From a virus: a stretch of 31,027 nt of DNA. Numbering within the stretch: the first letter of the stretch is position 1; each line of letters begins with the position of its first letter. The stretch spans positions 1 through 31,027 of the IMG/VR virus record IMGVR_UViG_3300005613_000278. One strand, given 5' to 3'. This document shows, piece by piece, positions 3,795 through 16,578 of the stretch. The notes below the pieces were generated by a model. The model was not told the DNA's origin. It ran no database searches and was given only the letters and a program-made list of their open reading frames with translations. Position numbers and translations under genes: made by a program.

Positions 3795-4383
3795 TTTCTT
3801 CACCCTCAGTCTCAGGTTCTACGTCTATAACTATTCCAGACTCTTGTGCAGCTTTAGTTCCACGGTTTTTGAAAGACTCGATTTCGTCCTTGGTTAAGGT
3901 TGTGTGGACGGAGTGACTTTGGACTTTCGTGGGAACTCGGAGGCCACTAAGTTCAAGCACTACTGTGTCAGCGACAGACTTTTGATCCTTAAGTGTTGCT
4001 TGCCCACCTTCATTGTCAAAGATCTCATGGTAGACATTAAGGGCCTTGTTTGTTAGCACCCTGATCTTTTCAACTGTCTTCTTCGCTTCAATGTCCCTGT
4101 CACCACGGATTTCGGATAGTTTGTGTTGGCCAAGCTTTCCGTTGAGAGTGTTGGAAACAGTGACTGGTGAGATGTTTAGGATCTGTGCTATTTCTTTGTT
4201 TTTGTAACCACTAGCACTTAAGTTAACTATCTCATGTGAACGCTGCCAGAGTTGCTTGATCTCGTATTTAAGTGGCTTCGCTTCACCTTCTTCATCATAT
4301 TGATCTTCCCTACGCCTATGATCAGGCTCAAGGTAATCAAACCCATAGAGGTTGTTTCTGGTCTGTAGTTCGACTTCTGGCAC
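3784..4383 (-). CDS. Terminase small subunit (HTH DNA-binding protein)
   Basis: A 199-residue protein with a LuxR/sigma-like helix-turn-helix at about 51-80 (SASGYKNKEIAQILNISPVT is the core), followed by a helical region and an acidic tail ending DVEPETEGEENDA. Small terminases bind the phage packaging site and regulate the large subunit. The start is GTG at 4383 with AGGAG 8 nt upstream, and it is the first gene after the minus-strand consensus promoter at 4415-4443. Its place at the head of the operon that contains the large terminase supports the call; a transcription regulator is the alternative. Confidence 0.7.
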   Translation of the reverse strand: MPEVELQTRNNLYGFDYLEPDHRRREDQYDEEGEAKPLKYEIKQLWQRSHEIVNLSASGYKNKEIAQILNISPVTVSNTLNGKLGQHKLSEIRGDRDIEAKKTVEKIRVLTNKALNVYHEIFDNEGGQATLKDQKSVADTVVLELSGLRVPTKVQSHSVHTTLTKDEIESFKNRGTKAAQESGIVIDVEPETEGEENDA

Positions 4384-12356: not shown

Positions 12357-12740
12357 ATGTTCTTTGGGTTTCCAACTAAGAAGTTAGATCACAGGTTCAT
12401 CGAAAAACCTGACTGCTATCTGGATCAAGAGACTGGACTTGAGTGGTCGAAAGATAACTATGGTCCCTATACTTGGGATCAGTTAATGTCATTTGACAAA
12501 GGTTCAATTTGGCGAGTTCCGACTATCAAAGAACTTCTAACATTAGTAGACTACGAAAAATATGGTCCTGCAGCAAGTTTACCAGAAATAGAGCTATCCA
12601 ATTACTGGTCGTCTACTCCCTATGCAGACGATACCAACTACGCATGGTACACCTATTTCTACGACGGCTACAGCTACGTCAGCAGAAAGTCAAATAGCCA
12701 CTATGTGCGTGCTGTGCGTGACGAAAGGAGAACAAGATGA
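12357..12740 (+). CDS. DUF1566 (C-type-lectin-like) domain protein
   Basis: 127 residues; AAAGGAGG 6 nt upstream. The DUF1566 pattern is complete: DQETGLEWSKD near 24-34, YTWDQLM, WRVPTIKELLTLVD near 52-65, NYWSSTPYADD, AWYTYFYDG, and HYVRAVRD at the end. This is an FGE/C-type-lectin-like fold, used as a ligand-binding domain and as the target domain of several diversity-generating retroelements. The C-terminal part is dominated by Tyr, Asp, Asn and Ser encoded by TAC, GAC, AAC and AGC, as in variable regions. No reverse transcriptase or template repeat is visible in the window. Unusual to find it among early replication genes. Confidence 0.8.
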   Translation: MFFGFPTKKLDHRFIEKPDCYLDQETGLEWSKDNYGPYTWDQLMSFDKGSIWRVPTIKELLTLVDYEKYGPAASLPEIELSNYWSSTPYADDTNYAWYTYFYDGYSYVSRKSNSHYVRAVRDERRTR

Positions 12741-15604: not shown

Positions 15605-16015
15605 ATGGCATTAGCAGACTACAGCGACATCGAACAGGAGATCAAAGACGCACCGGAACCTAAGATCCTCCCTCGTGGGAGCGAAGTAAAAGCTAGAATC
15701 ATCGGTCACAATGAGGGTGAAGGTGACTACGGAACCTGGCATCAGTTTGTCTTTGACGTTCCAAGTGATCCACTGGTCAAGGAGTTTAGGAAGTTCGTCA
15801 GTGATCCTCTGCAGGCAAAAGATGCTGAAGAGAGGATAAAGCAAGGGATATATAGAGGATTCAACCAGTTCACTACATGCTTTGGCATAGATATCTCTCG
15901 CCCAGTAGATTGGGATGAGTGGGTTGGTCTTGAGGGCTGGGTCATTCTTGGTGTGAGGAAAGATGATGAGTATGGGGATCAGAATACGGTTTCCAAGTAT
16001 GTAACTGGGAAGTAA
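15605..16015 (+). CDS. Probable SSB-like protein
   Basis: 136 residues; AAAGGAG about 8 nt upstream. Strands such as ILPRGSEVKARIIGH, GTWHQFVFDVP and LEGWVILGVRKDDEYGDQNTV fit an OB-like phage single-strand-binding protein (DUF669-like). Its place right after the Sak4-like ATPase is where such proteins are found. No acidic C-terminal tail of the bacterial SSB type is present (it ends KYVTGK). Moderate certainty. Confidence 0.6.
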   Translation: MALADYSDIEQEIKDAPEPKILPRGSEVKARIIGHNEGEGDYGTWHQFVFDVPSDPLVKEFRKFVSDPLQAKDAEERIKQGIYRGFNQFTTCFGIDISRPVDWDEWVGLEGWVILGVRKDDEYGDQNTVSKYVTGK

Positions 16016-16023
16016 TGTAGTGC

Positions 16024-16221
16024 GTGGCAAGTGGCGGAATTGACAAGCTGAGGGATACTCAGTCGATACAATTTCGACAAGCTTGTTATTGGTAGACGCA
16101 CAGTTAGCCAAGCATCAGGCTTTCCCGCTTGAAGTAGCTAGGCTGAGGATAGGACAGCAACCGAATCCTAATGACTGTATCTCAATGCTGTGAGATCCAG
16201 GTTCGAATCCTGGCTTGCCAC
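16024..16221 (+). tRNA. tRNA-Leu-like RNA with large insertions in the D loop and anticodon loop
   Basis: Acceptor arm TGGCAAG (16025-16031) pairs perfectly with CTTGCCA (16214-16220), extended by G16024-C16221. TG then GCGGAATT (16034-16041) and GGTAGACGC (16091-16099) are the two halves of a typical tRNA-Leu D arm, but 49 nt (16042-16090) separate them. The insert folds as a 7-bp stem (16043-16049 with 16080-16086) enclosing two hairpins. Stem ACAGTTA (16100-16106) pairs with TGACTGT (16172-16178), enclosing about 65 nt instead of a 7-nt loop. Then follow a class II variable arm (ATCTCA 16179-16184 with TGAGAT 16191-16196) and a perfect T arm (CCAGG-TTCGAAT-CCTGG, 16197-16213). No encoded CCA. 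No anticodon can be assigned. It may be an intron-bearing tRNA or a tRNA-derived structural RNA. Group I core motifs are not evident. Confidence 0.65.
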
Positions 16222-16224
16222 GAA

Positions 16225-16249: not shown

Positions 16250-16266
16250 AAATGAAAGGAGCTACC

Positions 16267-16578
16267 ATGAACCAACAAGATTTTGACATCGAACTGGAAA
16301 AATCCTACCTCCGTAGTAAGAGGTTATTATCAAAAAAAGCTGGTGAGTATGCACTTGGTAAGGATCGCCTTGAACAGTTCCACCGAATAGCTGCGGCTAC
16401 CACCACTAACCCTGCCGAAGCATTGGTTAACTTATCAATGAAGCATGTAACCTCAATTGCAGATATGAGTAAATGTCCCAAAGCGTACAATTTAAGAAAG
16501 TGGCGGGAAAAGATAACCGATCTTCGCAATTACACTTTCCTCCTCGACGCTTTGTTGATAGACCTGGAGGTTAAGTGA
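16267..16578 (+). CDS. Conserved phage protein, DUF1599/Nmad1-like
   Basis: 103 residues from ATG 16267 (AAAGGAG 5 nt upstream). The pattern YLRSKRLLSKKAGEYALGKD, DRLEQFHRIAA, KHVTSIADM and WREKITDLRNYTFLLDALL resembles the helical DUF1599 / nucleotide-modification-associated family, in which a KxxDYG-like motif and a final D..NY helix are conserved. Position next to dCMP deaminase is consistent with nucleotide metabolism. Function not established. Confidence 0.6.
   Translation: MNQQDFDIELEKSYLRSKRLLSKKAGEYALGKDRLEQFHRIAAATTTNPAEALVNLSMKHVTSIADMSKCPKAYNLRKWREKITDLRNYTFLLDALLIDLEVK

Follow-up and report, generated by a model that had tools for sequence, protein, structure and literature searches.

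The virus-derived DNA analysed here (IMG/VR record IMGVR_UViG_3300005613_000278; 31,027 nucleotides, hereafter the window) carries at positions 16023..16222 of the + strand a 200-nt class II tRNA-Leu shell that harbors a structured insert in its D loop and has no anticodon. The element is real, recurrent, covarying and apparently undescribed. It retains the acceptor/T helix, the D stem and the elbow contacts of a tRNA, and the structured modules found in its anticodon loop and on one side of its D loop are exchanged between phages. We propose, with a probability of about one half, that it is a non-decoding, tRNA-Leu-derived scaffold RNA lying behind the gene of a ssDNA-binding-like protein, carrying swappable payloads, and either cut from the mRNA or protecting it. 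The original prediction had suggested, among other possibilities, a tRNA mimic with a role outside decoding, which our data support; the fixed place of the element behind the stop codon of one gene, the other structured RNAs that replace it in relatives and the extent of its family go beyond that prediction.

A tRNA-Leu shell with two structured inserts

All arms of a class II tRNA-Leu had been predicted between positions 16024 and 16221, and the shell search, the fold energy and the comparison with shuffled sequences confirmed both the arms and their location, but moved the ends outwards to 16023-16222. The closing stem pairs 16023..16031 with 16214..16222 and, with 9 bp, exceeds a normal acceptor by two pairs. 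The equivalents of U8-G9 are present, and the D stem is formed by GCG (16034..16036) and CGC (16097..16099). The D loop reads GAAT, then a 48-nt insert (16041..16088), and then TTGGTAGA (16089..16096, assigned from sequence and fold), which provides the equivalents of G18-G19 at 16091-16092. In the predicted fold the insert is a three-way junction, i.e. a 9-bp stem (TGACAAGCT/AGCTTGTTA, also supported by covariation) bearing two hairpins (16050-16060 and 16062-16078), so that the predicted three-way-junction-like D-loop insert is real and structured, and only its length of 49 nt had to be corrected. The stem standing at the anticodon position (CAGTT, 16101..16105; GACTG, 16173..16177) encloses 67 nt (16106..16172), not about 65, which replace the anticodon loop, are predicted to form two hairpins (16106-16144 and 16146-16169) and contain no canonical anticodon. 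They are followed by a long variable arm, ATCTCA-ATGCTG-TGAGAT (16179..16196; stem 16179-84 with 16191-96), the final T of which is position 48, and by the T arm CCAGG-TTCGAAT-CCTGG (16197..16213).

The minimum energy was −73.1 kcal/mol both when the shell was enforced and when the RNA was allowed to fold freely, showing that the tRNA arms come at no energy cost, and the corresponding z-score was −3.8 as compared to dinucleotide shuffles, none of which (0/200) folded as well. A strict shell search gave one match in the window and none in 300 shuffled windows, and a loose one gave one match in the window versus four in 300 shuffles. When compared with a functional tRNA-Leu, the element has the acceptor (9 bp rather than 7), the D stem, the T arm and the long variable arm, but neither the 5-bp anticodon stem with a 7-nt loop, U33 and a Leu anticodon (the loop is of 67 nt), nor the unpaired discriminator A73, the corresponding base being a C that is paired with G-1 and followed by GAA. 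It displays all features shared by the tRNA-shell family described below, namely a paired acceptor, TGGCG..AAT, GG..GACGC, T48 and the T arm.

ARAGORN called no tRNA or tmRNA at the element, which had no match in Rfam at gathering thresholds, and which the Rfam tRNA model under lax filters scored at 14.6 bits (E = 4). No described family was recognised in the window element or its relatives by Rfam with either gathering or lax settings, and no ribozyme family was among the matches, which lends no support to the small ribozyme that had been envisaged, nor did any result support the suggested evasion of anticodon nucleases; around the relatives, Rfam picked up ordinary tRNAs and, close to an array, a single freshwater-1 RNA. 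In a BLAST search of phages, the element gave weak partial matches only, mostly to tRNA T arms, and a scan for sigma-70 promoters and intrinsic terminators around the element gave results at chance level.

Relatives in other phages

The tRNA shell with a D-loop insert was found at about 30 further viral loci. The IMG/VR pattern TGGCGNAATTG-N30..60-TTGGTAGACGC yielded 18 loci, nearly all of which have the same shell with different acceptors, inserts and cores, and two other patterns gave the extra loci. Among the D-insert shells the acceptor sequences vary and their pairing is maintained, the closing stem is of 9-11 bp in many members, and the discriminator of the window element and many others is C, G or T, or is base-paired. 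Covariation in homologous loci had been put forward as a check, and compensatory changes were indeed found: in the ten members with a long insert stem, 100% of the cells are paired with three compensatory pairs, a covariation score that was reached by none of 500 shuffles. Similarly, the 17 unique inserts showed 90% pairing in register, versus 21-48% when the strands were slid. A search of 84,980 cellular genomes with the first pattern produced 45 matches and a single clear case (L040), a short contig of a Desulfobacterales assembly; the rest consisted of tRNA-Leu genes, whether ordinary, duplicated or nested, together with a few unrelated sequences. In six cellular loci, mostly from candidate phyla (L036, L039, L042, L049, L059 and L066), a whole tRNA-Leu gene is nested in the D arm or the anticodon region of another one. 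L211 (in the element at 4346, − strand) and L255 have extra small hairpins, CACC-GAAA-GGTG and TGGCG-GAAT-CGCCA, after the T arm and ahead of the 3' acceptor strand, which makes a third insertion site.

A larger group, of more than 100 further phage elements, possesses the shell without a D-loop insert and nearly always without a canonical anticodon arm. The second IMG/VR pattern, AGTCAGGTGGCGNAAT, provided at least 148 unique shells for counting, with a normal D loop and, among the matches listed, a hypervariable core of 24-140 nt; among these same matches, a canonical anticodon arm occurs in 6/148 unique shells, two of them being plain tRNA-Leu genes, and the discriminator is A in 124/148. 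Position 48, the partner of A15 in tRNAs, is T in 103/113 relatives among the matches listed. This base was absent from every search pattern, hence its conservation indicates that the tRNA elbow itself is retained. The cores are mostly unrelated to each other (110/141 are singletons among the matches listed) and slightly more structured than shuffles, with a mean z of −0.7 from which it follows that some inserts may be passengers. An anticodon stem enforced across the cores scored barely above shuffles, and the search for a shared core motif revealed only a weak enrichment in GAGA/ACTC. In one core family of five members, which includes the assembled phage ctfjg026 with its different acceptor, the stem at the anticodon position shows two compensatory pairs. 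The same core also occurs with and without the D-loop insert (L020/L074).

Tandem arrays of shells having one acceptor (AGTCAGG/CCTGACT) and unrelated cores occur in L028 (10600-11800) and L086; a gene for a GIY-YIG homing endonuclease lies behind the L028 array. Unannotated shells are present in Bacteroides phage BS-TP2, Vibrio phage 2.275.O and a 735-kb phage. ARAGORN made no call on the elements of the isolates examined, and mis-called other shells as odd tRNAs. A conserved hairpin, GCYYGGAAAGACRRGC, with compensatory changes, stands just ahead of the shells of L016, L028, L165 and BS-TP2 (L280, about 400-420). Together, we are highly confident that this non-decoding tRNA-shell family is real, and the group is apparently undescribed: our literature searches, which had most subscription journals outside their reach, found no description of such elements. 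Rfam holds no family for the window element, and this widespread family of non-decoding tRNA-like phage RNAs was apparently missed by annotation.

The site behind the OB-like gene

The 31 kb of the window are part of a tailed phage genome and encode a terminase, a Sak4-like ATPase, a DNA polymerase and a primase. Its DNA polymerase is nearest to that of Desulfofustis phage LS06-2018-MD01 (48% identity), the closest sequenced relative by this protein, which makes a desulfobacterial host likely. An Lcl_C (DUF1566-like) domain protein, of a fold that often serves as a variable protein, is encoded at 12357-12740, and we noticed no reverse transcriptase in the rest of the window. The ORF preceding the RNA (15605..16015, + strand), which has the Sak4-like gene as a neighbour, codes for a 136-aa protein with a predicted OB-like fold; its stop codon lies 7 nt ahead of the first paired base of the RNA. 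The structure model (pLDDT 85.5) is a beta barrel with a helix, for which Foldseek gave weak matches (E 0.006-0.3) to RPA, RadD, LEF-3, PRD1 P12 and SSB, and Pfam no match. We regard this protein as a probable ssDNA-binding protein, with a weak assignment to the OB fold that derives from the model. The ORF downstream of the RNA (16252..16578, + strand) belongs to phrog_6802, of unknown function, and contains an ATG at 16267 preceded by GGAG, which resembles a ribosome-binding site.

In the window, L002, L003, L194, L201, L210 and L212, the shell occurs about 9 nt (8-11) past the stop of the same 136-146-aa gene, and in most relatives the closing stem begins 6-10 nt after the stop. A profile search for the OB-like gene collected 62 loci, and the slot behind it was usually occupied by a stem-closed RNA, 29/42 unique slots beating all shuffles. 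On the same contigs this was the case for 17/27 slots versus 5/36 other gaps (Fisher p = 1.2e-4). The slot is reserved for stem-closed RNAs, which are of several types: the tRNA shell, either complete or missing its D or T arm, a plain hairpin, and two undescribed motifs that we call M1 and M2. L002, L003 and L263, for instance, have the closing stem and no canonical T loop. On the OB-like gene tree, the tRNA-like state underwent no fewer than nine changes. Motif M1 (TGGGGCATGGGAGCYGGTAAT ... GGAGC.GGTG, inside the closing stem) fills the slots of L231, L238, L248, L252, L253 and L259; its hairpin and inner stem apparently covary, as judged by eye, and it has no match in Rfam. Motif M2 (TGTCC..AACTATCGGA..GGTGAAA..TTCCGAG) is pseudoknot-like, and is free in the slot of L234 and lodged inside a tRNA D loop in the slot of L255 and in L200 (3870-3945), meaning that modules are exchanged. 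Likewise, the neighbours L002 and L003 have a common core and unrelated D-loop inserts borne by the same TGGCAAG/CTTGCCA stem. These inserts, the placement of M2 and the changing slot types show that, at this one fixed position, both modules and complete RNA types are exchanged. In the lineage of the window, the role of the RNA is probably tied to its position 3' of the gene. Many relatives (L215-L264) have an AT-rich palindrome like GTTTAAAATTTAAACAATCT next to the RNA slot, before the following gene; this palindrome is possibly an operator or a phage promoter.

Proposed role and alternative explanations

As concerns processing and payload function, we infer that the shell RNA would be co-transcribed with the upstream gene, and that its tRNA-like fold may mark it for the host RNase P or RNase Z, or at least stop exonucleases, to punctuate and shield the mRNA and to leave a stable small RNA. 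The inserts may be payloads, either protein-binding or base-pairing, or merely tolerated diversity; for the insert modules to have functions of their own, we consider the odds to be even. Excision by RNase P/Z is a little more doubtful. The closing stem being of 9-11 bp in many D-insert members, the usual sites of both enzymes would fall within a helix there, and the persistence of the closing stem in L002, L003 and L263, devoid of a canonical T loop, implies that recognition by tRNA enzymes is not essential everywhere, so canonical RNase P/Z processing can be a partial account at most. The AGTCAGG elements occur in tRNA-like arrays located elsewhere than at the OB-like gene, and consequently a purely cis role fails to cover the whole family; these tandem arrays suggest that shells also serve as free RNAs. 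The safest functional statement is that selection acts on a structured element behind the OB-like gene, and that the tRNA shell is one way to build such an element.

Introns, decoding, an attP site and decay are all disfavoured, given the lack of a canonical anticodon, the lack of an integrase in the proteins tested, and the covariation. One earlier suggestion was a tRNA interrupted by two small introns of a novel type, which would be spliced to a working tRNA-Leu. Deleting the 48-nt insert does give a perfect tRNA-Leu D loop, GAATTGGTAGA, and a 5-bp stem exists at the anticodon position, but removal of the second insert restores no canonical anticodon loop, with no U33 on either side; the base following the 7-bp acceptor is paired and is not A, and most family members are devoid of a canonical anticodon arm, making this proposal very improbable. 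Hardly better is the idea of a decayed tRNA-Leu gene with random insertions, which accounts for the clear tRNA-Leu origin and for the unrelated cores, but was contradicted by the compensatory changes in homologs, along with the perfect stems, the retention of T48, and the recurrence in unrelated phages with one clear cellular case in the pattern search. The least probable explanation is an attP site made of host tRNA-Leu sequence, as may be evoked by the tRNA-Leu-like sequence next to the integrase of the Synechococcus phages S-TIP37 and S-TIP28; attP sites normally hold a colinear tRNA segment rather than a full shell with inserts, and the window proteins that were tested (a subset of the ORFs) include no integrase. 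A leucylated, tmRNA-like RNA that uses LeuRS, an enzyme which does not read the anticodon, agrees with the tRNA-Leu D arm and the frequent discriminator A of the larger group. It is improbable in view of the discriminators and extended acceptors of the window element and many D-insert members, and of the scant space that cores of 24-140 nt leave for a tag ORF.

The remaining alternative is a trans-acting RNA, the shell of which would be a stabilising scaffold and the inserts of which would work as decoys, sponges, antisense RNAs or protein ligands against host functions or defences. It is consistent with the constant shell and its two hypervariable sites, the movement of modules between positions, the many different cores in one shell of the L028 arrays, the compensatory changes within core families, and the precedent of T4 RNA C as a stable tRNA-like RNA. 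We nevertheless find it rather unlikely: no target was found, the cores have no common motif beyond the weak GAGA/ACTC enrichment, and a place right after the stop of one gene is unnecessary for a role in trans. A wider version of the scaffold proposal, which we offer as a tentative one, is that phages possess a natural tRNA-scaffold system, in which a constant shell recognised by tRNA enzymes would have two ports for swapped modules, be disposed in arrays or behind replication genes, and supply many diverse stable RNAs in the course of infection, perhaps as an anti-host arsenal that diversifies rapidly; T4 RNA C would then be its long-known example.

T4 RNA C (species 1 RNA, rnaC) appears, from likeness judged by eye and fold, to be the nearest known thing. 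It is a phage-encoded small RNA with the T arm CCGGG-TTCGAAT-CCCGG, a long hairpin at the position of the variable arm and no anticodon arm seen, and the window element has the same tRNA-like 3' half (variable-arm hairpin and T arm) devoid of an anticodon arm. In contrast with the shells, its acceptor pairing reads as imperfect and no tRNA-Leu D arm was seen, and, unlike the window element, it lies in a tRNA cluster and not behind a ssDNA-binding-like gene. T4 RNA C is of the late class, was detected by northern blotting (PMC9697503), and has an unknown biological role (PMC3014915).

The tmRNA (ssrA) also keeps the acceptor and the T arm and has other structured RNA in place of the anticodon arm, but it is tRNA-Ala-like, with a stemless, reduced D arm, a tag ORF and pseudoknots, whereas the window shell has a tRNA-Leu D arm and a hypervariable core in which no tag ORF was found; ARAGORN and Rfam detected no tRNA-Ala-like domain with a tag frame in the window. 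Group I introns of tRNA-Leu similarly sit in the anticodon region. The window element is far smaller than these introns, has the extra D-loop insert and restores no anticodon, and its 67 nt lack the catalytic core (P3-P9) and have no Rfam match. In the man-made tRNA scaffold for recombinant RNA, the payload occupies the anticodon region of a protecting tRNA shell; the architecture is the same, but the window element is natural and has the D loop as a further insertion site. T7 has RNase III sites, which are structured intergenic RNAs that set mRNA ends. Such processing hairpins resemble the plain hairpins found in the same slot of relatives, and differ from the tRNA-like fold with inserts of the window element. 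If the shell RNAs of this family are made and processed, they would be a natural case of the tRNA fold carrying other RNAs, and would offer a basis of comparison for T4 RNAs C and D, themselves unexplained. The finding is testable now, since such elements are present in isolated phages of Bacteroides and Vibrio.
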